From Fimbriimonas ginsengisoli Gsoil 348 (lineage in GTDB: Bacteria > Armatimonadota > Fimbriimonadia > Fimbriimonadales > Fimbriimonadaceae), in contig CAMCVK010000005.1 in the NCBI GenBank assembly GCA_945881865.1, forward strand, positions 1 through 64,000: DNA of 64,000 nt, read 5' to 3'. Each line of letters starts with the position of its first letter. Position 1 is the first letter of the stretch. The position numbers were made by a program, and so were the translations under genes. Shown piece after piece: positions 776-15,638 of this stretch. A model generated the notes under the pieces. The model was not told where the DNA came from, ran no database searches, and saw nothing but the letters and a program-made list of their open reading frames with translations.

Positions 776-1423
776 TCATCCCAAGTCACTCCAAGCCGCC
801 ACTGAGGCTCCAAGCATGACCTCGAAAAACTGTAGGTAGGGAGGGAAAACCAGATCCGAGCAAACAGCCATCTCAGTATAGAACTTCGTCCAGATCAGGA
901 GCGTCAGATCTACCTCCGACATTGAGTACCTGTAATTACTAGCAGACCTGGAGCTTTTTAGCGACCACACGAAGCTTTCATTTGCACAGCTCGACATATC
1001 GATCATCAAAGACCGATCCGTAGGGATCGCGCGCGCAAAGTCTTCGGGACCAAGCATATCTCTACCTATCTGAACACGACCCTTCGCAAAGTGGGTAAGA
1101 ACTACCGCAACATCAATCCCACCAAACCTAGCACACAAATCGCGTCCTTCGCGGACAGATGAAGCGAACATTCCTCTGTTCAACCACTCCTGCATACAGA
1201 GCTCCAGTGGTCGCTGAGCCCCGATGGTGTACTCTTCGTATCCGCTGAACTTTGCCTCAAACGAATCTGGAGATGAGGCTTTGCTTTCGCCAAACGCACG
1301 CTCATCGGTGGCCAGACCGACTAGCAACGCAACGCGATTTCGCTCCGTGATTGAGATTGCTGGTGAAGCCAAGTCTTTTCTCACTGCGCATCCAACCGCT
1401 GGGGAATGAGAATGTAGCGACAT
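776..1423 (-). CDS. Unknown protein with possible caspase/CHAT-like His/Cys dyad
   Basis: 215 residues, cytoplasmic by appearance. The middle reads VVLTHFAKG (His111), then an IP segment and LMIDMSSCANE (Cys146). The order hydrophobic strand-His-small loop-hydrophobic strand-Cys is what clan CD peptidases of the CHAT/caspase type show, but the HG and DSC signatures are not canonical, so this is a hypothesis. It is the third gene of a minus-strand operon. Its start overlaps the end of the preceding gene by 43 bp in another frame, suggesting translational coupling. No other ATG is available before residue 77. Confidence 0.55.
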   Translation of the reverse strand: MSLHSHSPAVGCAVRKDLASPAISITERNRVALLVGLATDERAFGESKASSPDSFEAKFSGYEEYTIGAQRPLELCMQEWLNRGMFASSVREGRDLCARFGGIDVAVVLTHFAKGRVQIGRDMLGPEDFARAIPTDRSLMIDMSSCANESFVWSLKSSRSASNYRYSMSEVDLTLLIWTKFYTEMAVCSDLVFPPYLQFFEVMLGASVAAWSDLG

Positions 1424-2820
1424 CCCATGAGCTCAAGCCTCACTTCCTGGGGAGCGATGCCGTGCTGCTTGTGTAGCACCCTAAACGTTCTGGACAAGCG
1501 TTCAGCTATGTTTTTGTACTTGACACGACCTTCTGCCTTGAAGGCTTCTATGAACGCGTCTAGGCTGCCCCTTGAAGTCATCTCAGCGATCAACGTCGTC
1601 TCTTGCCGACCAATAGCGATCGTGCACTCTGACCTCCAGCGTTCGCCAACCGGCTGAGCATTCGGGAACATGCGTCGGGTATAAGCGCCATGCTCCATCG
1701 CAAAGTCAACGCCAGATACATTGGATGCCTTCGGGATGATGCCGATCTGGACAGGCCGGGGAGAGGGCCCTAGCCGAGCAACTCGGAGCGAAGCCTCAAG
1801 GGCCTCGACATCGGAAGGGGTCATGTTCCAAGGAATCAACTGGACACTTTGAATGCCAGGCGGCACGAAATCAATCAGCGGCCGACTCAGATTTCCAGCT
1901 TTCGAATTTTCGAGATCCACAATTCTCTGCACGCACGCAATGGGGACTCCGAACGAGTCGAAAACTCGGTAGTAGTTGTTCTCCAGGGTAATTAGCCAAG
2001 CAACATAGGAGTCCGAACCCTTCGCCCCTAATCGCCGGGCCTCGCCGCCATATCGAACCGCCGATTTCACCAGCGGCGCAAGATTCTCTAGGGGCGTAAC
2101 ACTTTTTGATTCAATTGCTTCGCCGTGCCAGTATTTATCAAAGATTGCTTGCCTTGTTGCTACACGTGCCCTTGCCGGGTGCCAACTCGGAAGATTATCG
2201 AACAGCCGCGATAAGTCTTCATAAGAGCTCTTGAAGACTTCAGATCTTAAAGCCCATAGTTTGGATTGAGGATTACTTGAGGCGACAACAGCATCCCAAG
2301 TCTTCTGGGAAAGGATAGACCCACCAGGAGCGCTCGCAAGCAACCCTTGGTTTTCCAGCACAAGAAGACCTTCCGGCGCATCACCAATCTCTGCAGTTTG
2401 GATTTGGTCCGTTAGAGCAATTGACACCTCTGCCGATCTTCTCGCACCGAAGTATGACCCGGAAACCTGAAGCAACTTGCCACTAACGGCGTCCGAAAGG
2501 TTGCGTGCTGGAGCCACGGTCCCATCCTTCAAGGTCACCTTGACGGACACGCTTTGAACCATATAAACGGCTTCGAACCCTTGCCCTTTCGGTCCCGCCG
2601 CATTCTCATCGTAACACAGGGCAGGCAGGCTCTTTTGAGGCCCGCCAGGCCCTCCGGCACTGGAGAGAGTGAAGCCCTTGAACGGAAGGACGGCAAGGCG
2701 TTGCACCGTTAGGCGTTGCCCCTGAGCGCTGACTGCGGCAAGTAGCAGAAGAGTTGACAGCAGGAAGGCAACTATCGATTTGGTATACAGGCTAGAGGAA
2801 AATATCTGGTTTCTGTTCAT
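1381..2820 (-). CDS. Secreted protein of unknown function, operon middle gene
   Basis: 479 residues when started at the ATG at 2820. The frame is open further upstream to 2931, but this ATG gives a classical signal peptide (hydrophobic core VAFLLSTLLLLAAVSA, cleavage near AQGQ) and limits overlap with the preceding gene to 29 bp. The mature part begins with beta-rich sequence carrying a GGPGGP turn, then mixed alpha/beta regions. I recognise no catalytic motif. It lies between the unknown gene at 2792-3601 and the possible CHAT-like gene at 776-1423, overlapping both. An exported protein flanked by two cytosolic partners is unusual. Confidence 0.65.
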   Translation of the reverse strand: MNRNQIFSSSLYTKSIVAFLLSTLLLLAAVSAQGQRLTVQRLAVLPFKGFTLSSAGGPGGPQKSLPALCYDENAAGPKGQGFEAVYMVQSVSVKVTLKDGTVAPARNLSDAVSGKLLQVSGSYFGARRSAEVSIALTDQIQTAEIGDAPEGLLVLENQGLLASAPGGSILSQKTWDAVVASSNPQSKLWALRSEVFKSSYEDLSRLFDNLPSWHPARARVATRQAIFDKYWHGEAIESKSVTPLENLAPLVKSAVRYGGEARRLGAKGSDSYVAWLITLENNYYRVFDSFGVPIACVQRIVDLENSKAGNLSRPLIDFVPPGIQSVQLIPWNMTPSDVEALEASLRVARLGPSPRPVQIGIIPKASNVSGVDFAMEHGAYTRRMFPNAQPVGERWRSECTIAIGRQETTLIAEMTSRGSLDAFIEAFKAEGRVKYKNIAERLSRTFRVLHKQHGIAPQEVRLELMGCRYILIPQRLDAQ

Positions 2821-3601
2821 AGGTTTCTCCGTAGTAGTCGGTAGGCAAAAATTTGTCGTCAGGAGCCTGAACTGCTCCGCCCGGTCCGTCGCCGAGTTGA
2901 TGAAGGTCAGTTTTGCCGTACCAGTTAGCAAAAAGCTGGAACCCTGAAAAGAGGGGCGTGCAGGGCTGCTTATCTATTGAGGCGTATCCGATATCGTGCT
3001 GGGAAACGATCGATCCCTCCACCGACAAGCCCTCCAAATTCGGGCCAAGCGTTTGAAACGAGGCTCCTAAGTCAATGCTTACGCAGCCTTTTTCCCCGGC
3101 GGAAACGACCAGGGTCGCAGCGTTAGCGCACACAACCTGAGTCACTAGAACCGATCCAAGCGGAAACCTGGACTCATGTGGCATCTTCCCTCGATCCTCA
3201 TTAGCGAACTTCAGCATCAGCGCCAATGACGAGGCTGAGCCACCCTTGATCTCTAAAAACTGACCGGAGTCGTAATGGAGAAAGACGGCATCGTTCCGTT
3301 GAAGCTCAAGAAAAACTCCCGCATGCGCCTCAACCAACTCGCAGTAGCTGAAGGGGGCCTCTCCCGCCGCCTTAAATCGAGCGCTTACGCCCTTCTCTGA
3401 AGAAAACCGCCTCGATCCGGGCGAGCTGTTGGCTTGGACCTGCAGCTCAGAGCCGTAGTTTCGGATGTTCCCGAGCCTATGGATCCTCCCTTCGCTCATC
3501 GACAGGATGTCACCGACCTCCACTCGCATCTCCGGAGGCCACGTAAGTGACAGCCCGAGACCCTCACGGAACTCCTTGGCAACAGTCATGGGTATGTTCA
3601 A
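2792..3601 (-). CDS. Unknown protein, first gene of the 776-3601 operon
   Basis: 269 residues without signal peptide or membrane segment. The N-terminal part has VEVGDILSMSEGRIHRLGNI (about residues 27-46), a pattern seen in some uncharacterised proteins of bacterial conflict systems; the rest is beta-rich with several Cys residues. I can assign no function. The gene starts the operon: its 3' end overlaps the next gene by 29 bp. An alternative start is Met5. Upstream to 3670 I see no clear promoter. Confidence 0.6.
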   Translation of the reverse strand: MNIPMTVAKEFREGLGLSLTWPPEMRVEVGDILSMSEGRIHRLGNIRNYGSELQVQANSSPGSRRFSSEKGVSARFKAAGEAPFSYCELVEAHAGVFLELQRNDAVFLHYDSGQFLEIKGGSASSLALMLKFANEDRGKMPHESRFPLGSVLVTQVVCANAATLVVSAGEKGCVSIDLGASFQTLGPNLEGLSVEGSIVSQHDIGYASIDKQPCTPLFSGFQLFANWYGKTDLHQLGDGPGGAVQAPDDKFLPTDYYGETYEQKPDIFL

Positions 3602-4313
3602 TGGGACCTCACTGCTAGATCGTCCGGCATAGGACTACTATATCCTCGGGTCCACGGTAGTTGCTATAGGCATGGGCCCTAAACGGAGAAAAATTTGGAA
3701 ACGGGTGTATGATGACACGAGCGGCCAGCCGGGGTCAGGTGATTCGCCTGGGTCGAGGGCAATAGCCATCGGACCCAGAACTTGCATCAACGAGGTTCGA
3801 GGGTTGACTGAGAACCAAGTTAAGTGGACAGGATTAATCGCGCTCAGCGCTCACCCCTCCTGTCGCACAGTTGCGTCAGGAGTTAGGTGACGAAGCCCAC
3901 TCGGCTGCCCGGACAAGAGGAGGCTCTATGAGGTCGAAGAGGCGACCTCGTTCGCAGTGGAGTGCGAGAAGCCAGAGTCACGGGAATAACTCGCTGGTTC
4001 AGGGCGGCCCCTCCCTTGGCTTCAGCGTCGAGTCCTAACTGAGGTCTGCGAGGTACATGAGCCCTCGAAACCAGAGCGATTGTCAAAGTGATCAGCCTCA
4101 CCTTTGATCTATACAAGCTCGAGGTTATGGCGGAGTTCTTGCGATATCGGGCCGAACCTTCCACCGGTGCAGTCGCCCTTGCTGTGTCCGGGTCGCCAGC
4201 GGCAGAGACGGCCCCCGGAGACTCCTTATAAACAATCACACTGGTTTCATTTGCCTCTCACTCCTGGCAACGCCTAGTCACGCGATTGTGGCTTTCAACA
4301 CCTTTGGCTCGCC
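3602..4313. other. Long gene-poor stretch
   Basis: About 700 bp with no convincing gene. Open frames here (for instance 3883-4239 minus and 3672-3890 plus) are rich in Arg/Ala/Pro/Ser and have no recognisable domain, so I consider them chance. The only clear structure is a hairpin at 3857-3882: CTCCTG-T-CGCA closes on TGCG-T-CAGGAG with a single T-T mismatch and a CAGT loop. It has no T-run and is not an obvious terminator. The region may be decayed DNA. Confidence 0.5.
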
Positions 4314-4314
4314 C

Positions 4315-4386
4315 AGAGCATCTTCCCCATCGAACACGAGTGCTGCATGGGCGCGCCCCACCCGAACCAGCCTCTCTTTTGTGTTA
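4315..4386 (-). pseudogene. Duplicated fragment of the GNAT gene at 8563-9138
   Basis: About 70 bp nearly identical to 8915-8986, inside the GNAT acetyltransferase gene (shared CTTCCCCATCGAACACGAGT; five to eight differences by my count). The match stops at 4386, exactly where the dispersed repeat (4388-4423) begins, so a gene piece has been welded to a repeat. It is far too short to code for anything. Confidence 0.8.
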
Positions 4387-4387
4387 C

Positions 4388-4423
4388 AAGTGAAACGAAG
4401 CCGTATCCCTTCCGGAGTACCAC
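4388..4423 (+). repeat. Dispersed repeat, truncated copy
   Basis: Only the 3' half of the repeat is present: AAGTGAAACGAAGCCGTATC through TTCCGGAGTACCA. Its left edge is the junction with the GNAT fragment at 4315-4386. Confidence 0.8.
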
Positions 4424-4533
4424 CATCTCCGGCTCACAATCGGGCTCGGGCCAGAATGATTTCAAACTACTTCAACTTGAATTGAATAGACCGACCCTTG
4501 CCGGCGGCCTGAACGCAGCAGTATCCTTTCGAC

Positions 4534-4927: not shown

Positions 4928-5011
4928 CCGAAACCCCGCCACAGGGAAACGTACGGGGTGAGTCGGGGCCGCCGGGTTCGTTAGCGGAGCGGTATCCTTC
5001 CCTCAGAACCA
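4928..5011 (+). repeat. Dispersed repeat, long form with internal deletion
   Basis: Starts with the GCCGAAACCCCGCCACAGGG module also found at 7312-7358 and 9298-9310, followed by the core repeat from 4974, which lacks about 19 bp (GAAGCGCCGCGAGTGAAAC is missing). It ends 20 bp before the nucleotidyltransferase start codon, so it may form part of that gene's promoter or leader region. Confidence 0.75.
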
Positions 5012-5030: not shown

Positions 5031-5408
5031 ATGAAGGCCACGCAGATATTAGAGGACAGGCGCACCGAAATCGAGTCGCTCTGCAAGCACTACGGAGTCA
5101 CACGGTTGCGCCTCTTTGGCAGTTCCGTGGGAGACCACTGGAATCCCGAATCAAGCGATTTTGACTTCCTCGCCGAGTTTGGCGAGCCACCCGTCGGCAT
5201 CAATCGCTTCCACCAGTTCTTTGGGCTACAGGTTGCCCTCGAAAATCTTCTCGGGCGCAAAGTCGACTTGGTCGACTGGAAGGTTGCTACGAAGCCCCAC
5301 TTTCGGGAGCAAGCTGAGTCCAGCGCGGTGACGTGGTTCACAGCTGCGACGCGATCGACCAGAATCGAATCCAAGACGCGGTCCGTGAGTACCTACCCCA
5401 ACTCCTAA
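5031..5408 (+). CDS. MntA-type minimal nucleotidyltransferase antitoxin, C-terminus altered by deletion
   Basis: 125 residues. The nucleotidyltransferase signature is intact: LFGSS (Gly30-Ser31) and SSDFDF (Asp43, Asp45), as in MNT proteins that AMPylate or otherwise neutralise a partner HEPN RNase. A Shine-Dalgarno-like GAGGTG lies before the ATG. From about residue 95 the frame runs into sequence that encodes, in another frame, the end of a HEPN protein (5321-5437), so the last 25-30 residues are probably not native. The toxin that should follow is missing. It may be an inactive relic or a solitary nucleotidyltransferase. Confidence 0.8.
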   Translation: MKATQILEDRRTEIESLCKHYGVTRLRLFGSSVGDHWNPESSDFDFLAEFGEPPVGINRFHQFFGLQVALENLLGRKVDLVDWKVATKPHFREQAESSAVTWFTAATRSTRIESKTRSVSTYPNS

Positions 5409-5437
5409 ACTGCGGTCGCGTTTTACTTGGCGAGTAG
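5321..5437 (+). pseudogene. Remnant of a HEPN (DUF86-type) toxin gene
   Basis: In the frame ending at the TAG 5435-5437 the translation is QRGDVVHSCDAID followed by a helix ending VREYLPQLL. That matches the end of DUF86-type HEPN toxins: the RNxxxH RNase motif (here R-GDVV-H), then YDxID, then the terminal LPxL helix. Everything upstream of the Arg is missing and is replaced by the antitoxin gene. A single deletion joining the 3' end of mntA to the 3' end of hepT explains the arrangement. Confidence 0.7.
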
Positions 5438-5446
5438 CGCCCCGCC

Positions 5447-5503
5447 GGGTTCGTTAGCGAAGCGCCGCGAGTGAAACGAAGCGGTAGCCCGTCCGGAGTG
5501 CCA
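5447..5503 (+). repeat. Dispersed repeat copy
   Basis: A full-length copy (GGGTTCGTTAGCGAAGCG to GTCCGGAGTGCCA) directly after the HEPN remnant. It is followed by CACCTCTTTTC, as is the copy at 203-259. Confidence 0.85.
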
Positions 5504-7219: not shown

Positions 7220-7465
7220 GCAAATCGTCTGGGATGGAGACCGACCAATTCCTGATTCAGAATCGCTGGGCAAGATTTAGCCATGTTGGGCCTGGTGAGA
7301 ATCTTGAGGCCGAAGGCCGAAACCCCGCCGCAGGGAAATGAGCCGAAGGCGAATCGGGGCCGCTGGGTTCGGTAGCGAAGCGCCGCGAGTGAAACGAAGC
7401 GGTATCCCGTCCGGGGTGCCAAGAAAGGCGATCCCGGGTGATTTTCATCGCGTCGCCTTTTAAGG
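7220..7465 (+). repeat. Long form of the dispersed repeat with hairpin
   Basis: Composite element: a 111-bp module (7220-7330) that recurs at 9200-9310 with one difference; a GCCGAAACCCCGCC module; the core repeat (7365-7421); and a degraded CCAAGAAAGGCGATC hairpin (7419-7465) like that at 8-54. The element fills most of the 6937-7585 gap. Minus-strand open frames across it (7081-7422, 7257-7448) are repeat-derived artefacts. Confidence 0.85.
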
Positions 7466-7585
7466 CCTAGCGACTGGACCCTAAAAGCTAGGCAAATTCT
7501 TCAATCCCCGGGCCGGAGGAGACTCTTTCACCTAACCCACCATCAGCCGTAGACGGTAACGATCCGCTTCCAACTTCTGCGGGGT

Positions 7586-9199: not shown

Positions 9200-9449
9200 G
9201 CAAATCGTCTGGGATGGAGACCGACCAATTCCTGATTCAGAATCGCTGGGCAAGATTTAGCCATGTTGGGCCTGGTGAGAATCTTGAGGCCGGAGGCCGA
9301 AACCCCGCCGAGCGAAACGAGGGCCACCAATGGAGTCAGAGATCCCGCCGCAGGGGAATAAGCGTAGCGAATCGGGATGAGTCGGGGCCGCTGGGTTCGC
9401 TAACGAAGCGCCGCGAGTGAAACGAAGCGATATCACATGCGGAGTCTCA
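9200..9449 (+). repeat. Long form of the dispersed repeat, second copy
   Basis: 9200-9310 is identical to 7220-7330 except for one base. It is followed by a variable stretch (9311-9385, with an extra GATCCCGCCGCAGGGGAATA-type block) and the core repeat at 9393-9449, whose 3' end has diverged (ATCACATGCGGAGTCTCAC). It fills most of the 9139-9505 gap. Confidence 0.85.
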
Positions 9450-10613: not shown

Positions 10614-11930
10614 TCAAAGTCCGTTGAGAGACTCGACTACGTTCAGGCGGCCGAAGCCGAGGCTCTGGTCCCAGAGCGGTGTGCTTCGGCCGAGCAGGCT
10701 TTGCAGGTCGCTATAGGTCGCGCTTGGTTTCGACAGCAGCATTTTCGAGGCAACGCCAGCGACTAGGGGGGCCGAGAACGAGGTTCCCCATCCGCCGGCC
10801 CAGCGGCCACCCGGGAACGGCAACATCAGGGCTTCACCAGGGGCGGCCACCAAGGTGAAGTCGGAGCCAGCGTTGCTAAACGCGCTACGGCGGGACAGTA
10901 GAGAAATTGATGCCACACCGGTTACTTTTGGCACCGCTGCCGGGTAACTCGGGAGGTTTATGAGGCCATCGTTCCCGGTGGACGCAACCAGGATCACACC
11001 TTGATCTGAAACTTCCTCGGCAGTTCGGGCGAGTTCTGGCGAAAAGGTGTAGGTGTTCAGGCTGAGGTTCACCACTTTGGCGCCCCGAATCTGGGCCGCA
11101 TGGATGCCGCGAATGACATCGAAAAGGCGGCCGGTTCCGTTTTGGTGAAACGCACGGATCGGAAGGATGCGAGCATTCGGAGCGACCAGCCGCACGGCAC
11201 CGGCAACCATCGTGCCATGTCCCAAACCGATGGGGATGCGGGCGTAGACGGGGTTGGCCGCCGATCCGACCGGCAGTAGTGGTGCCGTTCCGTTTGAAAG
11301 GTGGGTAATTTGCGTGCGCAATAGAGGTGTCGTGGTGGGGTTAATGAAAGCAAGCACGTCGGCGGGCAGTCCGGTTAACTCGCTCCCAGTTCCGCCTGGC
11401 GTAAGGTAGTCGATGCCCGTCAGCAGTCGCCCGGCAAAGAATGGGTGCGACCGGTCCACCCCGGTGTCGATGACGGCGACCGTTCCGCCGCCTAGGCCCT
11501 GCATGTTCCATGAGAGATTTGCACTCACAAAGCCAAGCGGCGCTTGAGTGATAGCGCCCTGGGGGGCGGTAACGCCAAAAAAGTTGATCGGCAAGTTGCG
11601 ACTGAACGCCGTTTGCAGATCGCTCATGGCAGAAGTCTGCCGAGTCCTAAGGGACAATATCGGCAATCGCAGCGTCTGATCGAGTTCGATGGAAACGTCG
11701 TCATCCGTATCGGAGGAGATGCGTTGCACCAAAATGTCCGGCCGCCGATTCTGCAAGTCAATCACGGCGTGAATCGGGCGTGTCGGAACGCTGGCTTGAA
11801 GCTGCAGTCCATAGCGGGCAAGAAACGTTGGCAGCGGCTCGCTCTCGGTGTATCTAAGGATATAACGCGGATTCGCCTCGGCGATTCCGACCAGCAACAC
11901 GCCCAAACAAAGGAAAGGAATTCGGTTCAT
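10614..11930 (-). CDS. Secreted subtilisin-like (S8) serine peptidase
   Basis: 438 residues with a signal peptide (FLCLGVLLVGIAEA). A propeptide-like region of about 120 residues is followed by the S8 catalytic domain: AVIDTGVD (Asp155), GHGTMVAG (His238), the oxyanion Asn in ASTGND (Asn320) and GTSFSAPLVAG (Ser384). All triad residues are present, so it should be active outside the cytoplasm. Its ATG overlaps the stop codon of the preceding gene (ATGA at 11927-11930), so it is the last gene of the operon starting with the ECF sigma factor at 15638. It is probably the effector or substrate-processing arm of that system. Confidence 0.92.
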   Translation of the reverse strand: MNRIPFLCLGVLLVGIAEANPRYILRYTESEPLPTFLARYGLQLQASVPTRPIHAVIDLQNRRPDILVQRISSDTDDDVSIELDQTLRLPILSLRTRQTSAMSDLQTAFSRNLPINFFGVTAPQGAITQAPLGFVSANLSWNMQGLGGGTVAVIDTGVDRSHPFFAGRLLTGIDYLTPGGTGSELTGLPADVLAFINPTTTPLLRTQITHLSNGTAPLLPVGSAANPVYARIPIGLGHGTMVAGAVRLVAPNARILPIRAFHQNGTGRLFDVIRGIHAAQIRGAKVVNLSLNTYTFSPELARTAEEVSDQGVILVASTGNDGLINLPSYPAAVPKVTGVASISLLSRRSAFSNAGSDFTLVAAPGEALMLPFPGGRWAGGWGTSFSAPLVAGVASKMLLSKPSATYSDLQSLLGRSTPLWDQSLGFGRLNVVESLNGL

Positions 11931-12454
11931 TGTAGGTTCACCTGGTAGATACCGCGCAAACCGGCGGCCTCAAAAGTCAATTGGGGTTCGTCGCGGGCGA
12001 TCTCTAACATGAATTCGCCGATTTCATCACAAAAAGCTTCCGAAGCACCTGCCTTTACCGAAATGCTTCCAGATGCCGGGCCGGTAAAGAGACCGACGAC
12101 AGAAAGCCGCGTGGTGTTCGGGATGGGCTCGAGGCGCAATTCCACCTCGGCGTCGTCGAACTCGAAGCGCAAGTCTCGGGCCGCCGAGCCGCCATGCCGA
12201 AACCCCGGCATACCTCCTTGGCCAGAAAAGACCAACCGACCGATCCAGCGTGGGTAGGTCGTAGGTAGCACGGGCAACAACGCTTTCGCGCGGTTTACGA
12301 AGAACTCCGGTGCGGGGTCTGCCGCGGCCGCCAGCACCTGGCGAAGGAGGAAAATTCGCTCGCTGGCCTCAGGGTCTTGCTCCACGGCGAGGCGGTCCTC
12401 GCCGGATGCAATCCCGCGCACGTAATCTGAAATCTGTCCCCAGGTAGCTTTCAT
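11927..12454 (-). CDS. Small beta-sandwich protein of the sigma/CHAT operon
   Basis: 175 residues from the ATG at 12454; the frame is open further upstream, but that part overlaps the CHAT gene. The N-terminal 50 residues are helical, with a repeated acidic pattern (IASGEDRLAVEQDPEASERI) like proteins that bind a sigma factor. Then come RLVFSGQGGMPGFRHGG, LRFEFDDAEVELRLEP, and a C-terminal beta domain of the carboxypeptidase-regulatory type. Similar proteins sit next to ECF sigma and CHAT genes in other phyla. Anti-sigma or sensor function is my inference. It starts 38 bp after the CHAT gene and overlaps the subtilase start by 4 bp. Confidence 0.7.
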   Translation of the reverse strand: MKATWGQISDYVRGIASGEDRLAVEQDPEASERIFLLRQVLAAAADPAPEFFVNRAKALLPVLPTTYPRWIGRLVFSGQGGMPGFRHGGSAARDLRFEFDDAEVELRLEPIPNTTRLSVVGLFTGPASGSISVKAGASEAFCDEIGEFMLEIARDEPQLTFEAAGLRGIYQVNLQ

Positions 12455-12492
12455 TATCGTTGATATCTTAAGGGCAGGAACCCAATCGGAGT

Positions 12493-15033
12493 CTAACCAG
12501 AATTTTCGGACGGAGCACTTTCCGGAGGAGCCCCAAACATAGCGAAGGCCGCCCAGTCGGCTGGGTGCGGGTGTCTTTGGGCGATATTGGCTGAAGCACT
12601 TTGATAAGCGAACATCAAGCCTTGATCGATTTTCGAGTAGAAGACGTCCATCCACTCCAGGGTGACAGCATCGGAAACTGCCCACAGGGAGGCGATCACG
12701 GTCTGAGAGCCCGCTCCAAGGAACGCTTCGATAAATCCTTCAGCGTCTCGAAGTTCACCGGGTACCGAGACTCCAGTCGAACAACCGCTCAGGACGGTGA
12801 GCTCGGCCGAGAGCCGTAACCGAACCACATCGAAGACGCTTAAGTCTCGGTCACCCAGCTTCATAGCGCTAAAAAGTGGTCGATCCTCTCGAACAATTCC
12901 ATGGGCCGCAATGTGCAGAACACGGGCGGCGGGGGCTGCCGCTTCAAACGCGGCTGGCCATGTTATTTGCACACCAAGGCGATCTGAAACCATGTGCACT
13001 TCTTTGTCGATGTGTGGAGCAAGGGCGTCGCCCACGCCCATCACGAGGGCTCCGGTGGCTAACGGTCGCCGTCTGCGCAGGGCCAGCCAGCTTGCCGCGC
13101 TGGGCGCATACAACACCTGCTGTCCCGGCACAAGAGCATGAAACGGAATAGCCGACAACGGATCATCCCTTGCAATGACGAGGTTGCCCGTGCCGCCCAA
13201 AACGGGAGCGAAACACCGCGCAACTTGGGAAAGAACCGCCCAAATTCGATCCGTTCCGCGCGTGCGATCTCGTGCCAGGTGGAAACGGAAGAACCTCGCC
13301 ATCCGCGCGAACTCCTCAACCTGTCCAAGGAGCACTTCTTGCACGTCGCTACCTCGAATGACGAAGGCGTAAAGGCACCCCTGATCCGAGAACAGCTCGA
13401 GGATTTGCGTTCCATCGGGCACGGGTCCAAGCTCGGTTGGGCTTGGAATGGAGCCGGTGGCCAGGCTTTGCGCCTCGTGAAGCGCGGTTGTCAAAGCCTC
13501 CTCCGATTCGCCAGAGTAGAGCCGACTTCTTAGCAGGCTCAAGTCGGATCCGAAGGGCAGCGATTCTGGCGAGAGTGCGATCTCGGAAAGGGTCTGGTTT
13601 TTGATTCGCGCCACCACTTCGTGCCTTTCCTTAGCATCCCCCAGGGCGCGGAAGCACTCACGCAGTATCTTGGTTTGCGCGACGGCGGCGGCCTGACGAA
13701 GTCGAGCACCGCCGATTCGGTCCCGGTGTGCGTCATATTCCGAAAGTGCCGTCCTGGCCCACGCGGCCGCCAGCTCCAGATCGCCCCGCTGGCGCGCCGA
13801 CTTCGCATTCAGGGTTGGCGTTGGGGCAAGCCGCGTGAAGAGAGCGGTCTCCCCTAAATCAAGTGCGAGATCGCCGAGTGCCTGGCGTATGGAAGGCAGT
13901 CGTTCGTCCGTTGGTCCCTGAGCTTCCGCCCTCAGCAGCTGCGTGAGGGCAGCTCTGGGGCGGTCCAAAGCCGTCCAGTATTCGGCATAGGCTTGGTGAA
14001 CCAGGGCGTGCCAGTTATGGTTTGGCACTTTACGGATGAGTCCTCTGGCCTCGTCTAGCGTCGCCTTCGCCTCGGCAGCGCGACCACTTCTCACCAGTGC
14101 CATGCCGGCGAGTAACCGTGCTTTGCCTTTTTCAAACCGGGTGTCGAGTTTGTCGAATATGTCAGCTGCCCGGTTGGCAGCCGCCAACGCGTCGGTCCAG
14201 AGGCCAGCATCCAGCATGAAGTCTGCCTGATCCAGGAAGGAGTGACCGATCTCGAATCCCAGTTCCTCTGGCAGCTCATGCCGCAATTGCCGGTAGGCAA
14301 CCAGGGCCTCCCGGAGAAAGCCTCTTCGTCCCAACAGATATGCCCGGTTAAGATCAATTTCAAGTACGAGCGAGCGGTCGCCGGCGTGTTCGAAGACGGC
14401 CCTTGCTTGACCATACATTGCTTCGGCTCGGTCCAGCGCAAGGAGTCCCATCAGGCAAACGCCGTAGTTACGCGCGACGATGGCAAGGTCCGCGATCGCT
14501 CCTGCTGCCGCAAGCACCGGCATGGCCGCTTCGTAATGCTCCTGCGCCTCGGCAAGGCGGTCGAGACGATAGTGCGCATTGGCCAAATTTGCCTGCACCC
14601 TTGCGGCACGAAACCCGTCTCCGATACTTTGAAAATGCGCGAGGGCCTCCCCGGCAACTTCAAAAGCACGGACGTAATTTCCCACGTACGATAGCGCCTG
14701 CAACATTGCGACGGCGGTAGCGGCCCGTTCGTCAGGATGCTCGGCGAAGGATCTTCGCGCCGCTTCGTAATGCGGAACGGCCCGCGCTGCCTTGCCGCGG
14801 AGTAGCTCCGAATGGCCCGACAATCGTGAGGCCAACCCCTCGCCCCGGACATCCTTGAGCTGGCGGGCAAGTTTCCCGGCCGCCGCGGCAAGCCGAGACG
14901 CGGCCATGACGTCGTGCCGAATGATCGCCATACCTTCTTGCACAAGCGCTTCCACCGTCTCCGGCTGGCGCAAAGCGGCGGGCGCGATCCGGGCACTGAC
15001 CATCGCCTTTTCCACATACTCCGGCAACGTCAC
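12493..15033 (-). CDS. TPR-CHAT protein (caspase-like protease with TPR array)
   Basis: 846 residues from the GTG at 15033, whose GTGA overlaps the TGA of the sigma factor gene; the longer open frame would overlap that gene by 160 bp. Residues about 30-480 are tandem tetratricopeptide helices (for example HYRLDRLAEAQEHYEAAMPV and FEKGKARLLAGMALVRSGRA). The C-terminal 300 residues are a CHAT peptidase domain with HIAAHG (His711) and LSGCSTGV (Cys751). CHAT proteins are clan CD cysteine peptidases, some triggered by signals read by their TPR region; here likely substrates are the neighbouring sigma factor, the beta-sandwich protein or other targets. No membrane segment. Confidence 0.92.
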   Translation of the reverse strand: MTLPEYVEKAMVSARIAPAALRQPETVEALVQEGMAIIRHDVMAASRLAAAAGKLARQLKDVRGEGLASRLSGHSELLRGKAARAVPHYEAARRSFAEHPDERAATAVAMLQALSYVGNYVRAFEVAGEALAHFQSIGDGFRAARVQANLANAHYRLDRLAEAQEHYEAAMPVLAAAGAIADLAIVARNYGVCLMGLLALDRAEAMYGQARAVFEHAGDRSLVLEIDLNRAYLLGRRGFLREALVAYRQLRHELPEELGFEIGHSFLDQADFMLDAGLWTDALAAANRAADIFDKLDTRFEKGKARLLAGMALVRSGRAAEAKATLDEARGLIRKVPNHNWHALVHQAYAEYWTALDRPRAALTQLLRAEAQGPTDERLPSIRQALGDLALDLGETALFTRLAPTPTLNAKSARQRGDLELAAAWARTALSEYDAHRDRIGGARLRQAAAVAQTKILRECFRALGDAKERHEVVARIKNQTLSEIALSPESLPFGSDLSLLRSRLYSGESEEALTTALHEAQSLATGSIPSPTELGPVPDGTQILELFSDQGCLYAFVIRGSDVQEVLLGQVEEFARMARFFRFHLARDRTRGTDRIWAVLSQVARCFAPVLGGTGNLVIARDDPLSAIPFHALVPGQQVLYAPSAASWLALRRRRPLATGALVMGVGDALAPHIDKEVHMVSDRLGVQITWPAAFEAAAPAARVLHIAAHGIVREDRPLFSAMKLGDRDLSVFDVVRLRLSAELTVLSGCSTGVSVPGELRDAEGFIEAFLGAGSQTVIASLWAVSDAVTLEWMDVFYSKIDQGLMFAYQSASANIAQRHPHPADWAAFAMFGAPPESAPSENSG

Positions 15034-15638
15034 GTCACGCCTCTGCTTCGCAAAATCCGCTCCAGATCGTCCAGACAGCGTTGGCGCGTCATGCTGATGG
15101 ATTGAATTTTGATTCCTAGCTGTTTGGCAACTTCGGCATATGGGGTTGGCGGGTCGGCGAAAAATAGCCGTTTCACAAGCTCCTGACACCGATCGGTTAG
15201 AGAATGGACCGCGTCCCTCACGGTCTGTCGCATTTCCATCTGCTCCAGGTCACCGGCCAGATCACCGTCGAATAGAAATGGTTCTACAATTTCTAAAGAC
15301 ATGGGAGCCTTCGCAGCGCCGTCCCGCAACTTAACGGCCTGCCGCAGCGTCGTTTGGCGGAGCCACGGTCGGAGGTGGTCCTCGGCCGCTAACTTCGGAA
15401 GTGCTTTAAAAAGTTCCACAAAAACGTACTGGAACCCATCGGGCTGGTCGGCCTCTGGCACGCGTGCAGATCGCAACAGCCCGTAGACGTAAGCCGAATA
15501 CCGATCGATGACGGCGGCCCATGCGGTCGGGTCACCCGCTTTTGCGCCTCGGATCAACGCCGCATCCGTAGCCTCTGGACTCTGCCTACGACGGTTCGCC
15601 ATCGCTTGAATCATACGCTGGTATGCGGAATTCGTCAC
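15030..15638 (-). CDS. ECF-type RNA polymerase sigma factor
   Basis: 202 residues. Region 2 spans GDPTAWAAVIDRYSAYVYGL to ALPKLAAEDHLRPWLRQ (about residues 35-105). Region 4 starts at LTDRCQELVKRLFF and contains the helix-turn-helix YAEVAKQLGIKIQSISMTRQ (about residues 165-185). No extra anti-sigma domain is fused. Alternative starts are Met9 and Met13. It opens the operon sigma, CHAT, beta-sandwich, subtilase, with translational coupling to the CHAT gene. Divergent from the secreted protein gene at 15719, so both promoters must lie in 15639-15718. Confidence 0.92.
   Translation of the reverse strand: MTNSAYQRMIQAMANRRRQSPEATDAALIRGAKAGDPTAWAAVIDRYSAYVYGLLRSARVPEADQPDGFQYVFVELFKALPKLAAEDHLRPWLRQTTLRQAVKLRDGAAKAPMSLEIVEPFLFDGDLAGDLEQMEMRQTVRDAVHSLTDRCQELVKRLFFADPPTPYAEVAKQLGIKIQSISMTRQRCLDDLERILRSRGVT

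Follow-up and report, generated by a model that had tools for sequence, protein, structure and literature searches.

We interpret the three overlapping minus-strand genes at positions 776-3601 as a bacterial gasdermin-type suicide module that is released by a protease and has unusual partners, a reading to which we give a probability of roughly 60%. Gasdermins are proteins that perforate membranes when cells kill themselves upon infection. Positions are those of the window, by which we mean the whole 64,000-nucleotide stretch of DNA that was analysed.

Organisation of the operon

The operon comprises the following features, all on the minus strand.

2792-3601, minus: gene 1, 269 aa, TTG start; proposed effector, a divergent bacterial-gasdermin-like pore former
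2795-2908, minus: C-terminal tail of gene 1 (residues 232-269), a variable linker with an acidic/aromatic end LPTDYYGETYEQKPDIFL
1381-2820, minus: gene 2, 479 aa from its ATG; orphan, exported, with an N-terminal Sec signal peptide
776-1423, minus: gene 3, 215 aa; a cytosolic orphan and candidate peptidase of clan CD (caspase/CHAT-like)
1091-1093, minus: His111 codon in gene 3, for the candidate catalytic histidine, as read from the sequence
986-988, minus: Cys146 codon in gene 3, for the candidate catalytic cysteine, as read from the sequence
2792-2820, minus: overlap of genes 1 and 2, 29 bp
1381-1423, minus: overlap of genes 2 and 3, 43 bp
3607-3610, minus: Shine-Dalgarno-like GAGG in the sequence 5 nt before the TTG of gene 1
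2827-2830, minus: GGAG ribosome-binding site of gene 2, inside gene 1 and 6 nt before the ATG of gene 2

The overlaps are exact and agree with the first-pass annotation, which had described three overlapping genes in an accessory, repeat-rich region. The latter description also holds: the operon DNA was sought in other genomes of the same genus and none has it, and short repeats lie on both sides (1-260 and 4311 onward). Within its own genome, the operon DNA is present as a single copy. When codon usage was scored with the window's long ORFs as the reference, the annotated frame ranked top of six for all three genes, with scores below those of most resident genes. Their GC content is 0.516-0.548 and their GC3 0.54-0.63, compared with a GC3 of 0.62-0.77 in the other long ORFs, and this combination of atypical codon usage and low GC and GC3 fits genuine genes of recent acquisition.

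The trio was absent from the 112 other genomes of the class, save for one distant relative of gene 1, and the three-gene set as such is not conserved. Searched singly against Pfam, NCBIfam, PADLOC, PHROGs and the PDB, none of the three genes gave a credible match, and a scan for promoters and terminators returned nothing beyond chance. Because the window opens at the end of a contig, the sequence past gene 3 is visible for 775 bp only and ends at base 1.

Distribution of the gene 1 family

Using tblastn of gene 1 against plasmids, we found relatives in Gemmatirosa (E = 6e-8, across 84% of the length) and Embleya, and blastp of gene 1 against its relatives gave the same E-value of 6e-8. Searches from these first relatives led to Mesorhizobium and Streptomyces avidinii, and then to Streptomyces NRRL S-244 and Phenylobacterium. 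A further relative is present in one other genome of the same taxonomic family (G079), the distant relative mentioned above. Pairwise BLAST links gene 1 to the Gemmatirosa, S-244 and Phenylobacterium proteins over most of its length. In an alignment of eight members, Trp21, Gly30 and Asp31 are invariant. An alignment of six was too diverse for pattern scanning. Gene 1 bears VGDILSMSEGRIHRLGNI, and the VGDI...RLGNI segment to which the first-pass annotation had drawn attention is present and contains the family-invariant Gly30-Asp31 pair.

By these comparisons, the gene 1 family is real but rare, spanning at least four phyla. Its patchy occurrence, in 3 of the 291 genomes of the phylum, suggests horizontal transfer. 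Scans of viral contigs with the gene 1 profiles returned no match, and none was found in phages. A further gene 1-like copy, in genome G121, is frame-broken: the reading frame of the gasdermin-like gene (L012 1453-1965) breaks off some 150 residues in, and no peptidase was recognised on its 11-kb contig.

Similarity of gene 1 to bacterial gasdermins

The first-pass annotation had left gene 1 as a protein of unknown function, and its likeness to gasdermins is now seen at the profile level. Compared with the PDB (177,635 sequences), the eight-member profile of the gene 1 family placed the bacterial gasdermin 7N50 at the top with an E-value of 1.4e-4, the next match lying at 0.077. Gasdermin 7N50 was also first with a six-member profile (E = 0.0084) and with a five-member subset (E = 0.0029). 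A disjoint three-member subset, which includes the window protein, returned two matches only, and both were gasdermins (8SL0, E = 1.0, and 7N51, E = 1.3). By comparison, a phmmer search with the 7N50 core reaches the accepted gasdermin 7N52 at an E-value of only 0.4, which makes such divergence normal among gasdermins. The similarity is colinear and extends over about 150 of 250 positions. Outside the PDB, one family member matched the PADLOC model of bacterial gasdermins (bGSDMs; PDLC02986) at E = 0.003 and another the NCBIfam prok_gasdermin model (NF051890) at E = 0.14, both below the cut-off, and no single sequence of the family reaches any curated gasdermin threshold.

The gasdermin N-domain fold has a twisted antiparallel beta-sheet and peripheral helices. 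AF2 modelling of gene 1 from three input sequences gave a structure of very low confidence, with a pLDDT of 36.6. Foldseek of this poor model against the PDB ranked bacterial gasdermins first and second (E = 0.009 and 0.011; TM 0.14-0.17), a match that we count as weak support because the viral library returned unrelated tail-tube proteins at E = 0.004. With unrelated viral proteins at similar E-values, we dropped the Foldseek result as strong proof.

On the strength of the profile comparisons, we consider gene 1 very likely to be gasdermin-like. It appears to belong to a divergent gasdermin clade that the Pfam, NCBIfam and PADLOC models miss and that the primary bGSDM literature may already recognise. 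Bacterial gasdermins are then probably under-counted by these models, and the range of their activators under-estimated. Canonical bGSDMs were also sought in the phylum, with one partial, frame-broken match only, in another genome.

In the eight-member alignment, a conserved PLF core is followed by a variable linker and, in the relatives, by short acidic/aromatic ends (VDYDHFA, VDYEDFS and ADYGDA). In bGSDMs, cleavage takes place some 20 aa before the C-terminus (PMC9612521), and by analogy the gene 1 tail, whose length is suitable, is proposed to be an autoinhibitory peptide that proteolysis would remove. No member of the family has a cysteine within its first 15 residues; an N-terminal palmitoylated cysteine is found in most bGSDMs and is not a required feature (PMC9612521).

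Peptidase genes beside the gene 1 relatives

If gene 1 is gasdermin-like, a protease partner is to be expected. We found that all seven intact relatives of gene 1 have a neighbouring gene encoding a peptidase or peptidase-like domain: CHAT in four, a caspase-FGE fusion in one, an amidase-papain fusion in one and, weakly, a transglutaminase-like region in one. The gene order is identical in Streptomyces NRRL S-244 and Phenylobacterium, where the gene 1-like gene, a TPR gene, a CHAT gene and a gene for an unknown protein of ~210 aa lie nearly end to end (L014 6719-10778 and L015 6720-10710); this four-gene operon looks like a separate defence system. In Embleya, a TPR-CHAT gene is immediately upstream of the gene 1-like gene, and in S. 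avidinii an adjacent TPR-CHAT gene is divergent. Mesorhizobium has a caspase (EACC1-associated type)-FGE fusion in an adjacent divergent unit, with a CHAT gene 2.5 kb off.

The divergent neighbour in G079 encodes an Amidase_2-papain fusion. Near the same gasdermin-like gene lies a long repeat array (L006 1149-3364, with FIPTGVGLL/GSSPQAWGS translations), which is probably a CRISPR array. Directly upstream of the Gemmatirosa relative (L007 4426-5940) is a gene for a protein with a TIR-like N-terminus, recognised by eye, and a transglutaminase-like region, which matches DUF553 at E = 0.024 and the anti-phage protein ProA at E = 4e-19.

Such peptidase neighbours are a known bGSDM architecture, in which the operon partners include C14 and CHAT caspase-like proteins, FGE-annotated C-type lectins and amidases (PMC9612521); fungal gasdermins also have CHAT protease partners (PMC10989679). 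The protease-based system suggested by the first-pass annotation thus has strong indirect support from the relatives, with a peptidase-type neighbour in 7/7 and CHAT in 4/7, while its tentative assignment of gene 3 as CHAT-like is not confirmed. Genes 2 and 3 were not seen with any gene 1 relative.

Gene 3 as a candidate activating peptidase

Gene 3 contains the His111 and Cys146 pair previously noted in it, and hydrophobic stretches precede both residues (VAVVLTH and SLMIDMSSC, respectively). The CHAT-like identity proposed alongside the pair gained neither a family match nor a score that beats shuffled sequences. No match was found to PF12770 or PF00656. When gene 3 was aligned to a CHAT profile with hhalign, the best alignment placed His111 and Cys146 next to the catalytic residues, terminating at the catalytic cysteine of CHAT and setting the histidine regions side by side, with a score of 13.9 that was matched or exceeded by 58 of 200 shuffles. 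The His-Cys block pattern, which was written after viewing the sequence, is met by 1.8% of gene 3 shuffles. His111 is followed by Phe (HF) instead of the usual Gly or Ala (HG/HA), and the His-Cys spacing is 35 residues, where nearly all CHATs compared have 38 or more. The single-sequence AF2 model (pLDDT 34, all helical) is meaningless, and its best Foldseek match was only at E = 1.7. Homologues of gene 3 were absent from the 291 genomes, plasmids and viral contigs; a match in genome G203 (E = 0.004) was rejected as spurious because it sits in a radical-SAM-like ORF. We hold the odds that gene 3 is the activating peptidase to be about even, mainly on account of its position in the operon.

The activator of a gasdermin-type gene 1 could instead be a peptidase encoded elsewhere and acting in trans, with genes 2 and 3 otherwise employed as sensor, inhibitor or immunity factors. 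We consider this unlikely, even with gene 3 lacking direct CHAT homology and a usable model, and even with candidates in the window: a true TPR-CHAT gene (12493-15189) lies 9 kb away, beside a gene for a subtilisin-like protein (10614-11930) that is a possible trans activator given that subtilases activate fungal gasdermins (PMC10989679). Against it, a peptidase-like gene directly adjoins the gene 1 relative in all 7 intact cases, and the sole cytosolic partner in the operon is gene 3, with its His-Cys block. The TPR-CHAT gene of the window, moreover, is accompanied by a sigma-factor-like gene of its own, and a same-genus genome without gene 1 holds a 41% relative of it.

A further explanation, in which gene 1 belongs to a family of peptidase-linked effectors or substrates that are cleaved or regulated by CHAT or caspase proteins, are gasdermin-like in local sequence pattern only and form no gasdermin pore, would accommodate a similarity that is confined to profiles and about 150 of 250 positions, the missed curated thresholds and the poor gene 1 model, but it is improbable, since gasdermins were the top PDB match of every profile, two disjoint subsets included, the similarity is colinear, and the operon partners fit known bGSDM operons (PMC9612521).

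Gene 2, an exported orphan

By inspection, the N-terminus of gene 2 has a K followed by SIVAFLLSTLLLLAAVSA/QGQ, a textbook Sec signal, in agreement with the signal peptide claimed for the middle product. Searches for homologues yielded only scattered partial matches (E = 0.002-0.05), several of them across stop codons, which we judged to be noise, and scans of genome contigs and viral contigs gave no match. As an exported protein without a protease signature, gene 2 was ruled out as the gasdermin-cleaving protease. A part as an envelope-side sensor, regulator or auxiliary factor is a doubtful assignment that we carry into the model below.

Proposed mechanism and comparison with known systems

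Under our preferred reading of a protease-released, gasdermin-type module, gene 1 would be built around a beta-rich core that forms the pore and bears an N-terminal helix, and its short C-terminal tail would hold it inactive. Upon a trigger, most likely phage infection, a peptidase would remove this tail, and the freed core would oligomerise in the inner membrane and permeabilise it, leading to death or growth stop. The activator would most likely be the product of the co-translated gene 3, a cysteine peptidase of caspase/CHAT-like type that would be highly derived and use His111 and Cys146, and the Sec-exported gene 2 product may act on the envelope side. The model follows bGSDMs, in which an inhibitory C-terminal peptide of ~20 aa is cut by a neighbouring protease to give the pore (PMC9612521, PMC10989679), and by this analogy we think it probable that gene 1 is activated by proteolysis.

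The gene 1 family resembles bGSDMs (7N50, 7N51, 7N52 and 8SL0; NF051890; PDLC02986) in its length of about 250-270 aa, in the short C-terminal tail that follows the core, in its patchy distribution and in being linked on the genome to genes for caspase/CHAT proteins, FGE fusions and amidases. It differs in staying below the curated thresholds and in having no N-terminal palmitoylation cysteine. Where bGSDMs have a recognisable protease partner, this operon instead has an exported protein and a putative peptidase, both orphans, and no exported component like gene 2 has been described for bGSDM operons. The two-gene gasdermin-caspase/CHAT systems (the Runella-type bGSDM-caspase and the fungal GSDM-subtilase/CHAT pairs) are similar in placing a pore former beside its activating protease, CHAT being a known partner, whereas here there are three overlapping genes, a candidate protease that is invisible to homology searches and an extra exported protein. 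The CARD-NLR gasdermin defence operons (Lysobacter type) likewise have a gasdermin effector in an accessory multi-gene operon, but no trypsin-like protease, NLR-like ATPase or CARD protein was recognised in the three genes. Gene 3 itself is like CHAT peptidases (PF12770) and caspases (PF00656) in its hydrophobic-His and hydrophobic-Cys blocks, 35 residues apart, and departs from them in its non-significant scores, its HF in place of HG/HA and its shorter His-Cys spacing.

More tentatively, the gene 1 family may represent an unannotated, multi-phylum gasdermin clade with diversified activators (CHAT, caspase-FGE, papain-amidase and TIR-transglutaminase), and in this operon would use a peptidase too derived for homology to reveal, together with an exported partner that would couple envelope sensing with pore formation. 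The clade bears on the number of peptidase types recruited to pyroptosis-like death and offers natural CHAT-gasdermin, caspase-FGE-gasdermin and papain-gasdermin pairs for direct testing. The exported gene 2 product is a possible link from envelope events to gasdermin activation.

Other features of the window

The TPR-CHAT gene belongs to an apparent minus-strand cluster at 10614-15638, which has the look of a conflict or regulatory module distinct from the operon. It comprises a sigma-factor-like gene (15030-15638), the TPR-CHAT gene (12493-15189), a gene for a 252-aa protein (11927-12685) and a gene for an exported subtilisin-like protease (10614-11930). Closer to the operon, a plus-strand ORF (5031-5408) carries a minimal-nucleotidyltransferase-like motif, RLFGSSVGDHWNPESSDFDFLAEF, of the kind found in HEPN-MNT toxin-antitoxin pairs, and its C-terminal part looks out of place. 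A dispersed repeat that contains GGGTTCGTTAGCGAAGCGCCGCGAGTGAAACGAAGCGGTAT...CCGTCCGGAGTACCA and has several copies between genes occurs at 51-259, 4386-4424, 4954-4991, 5418-5503, 7336-7421 and 9364-9449, and hairpin-like repeats are present at 1-62 and 7412-7473.
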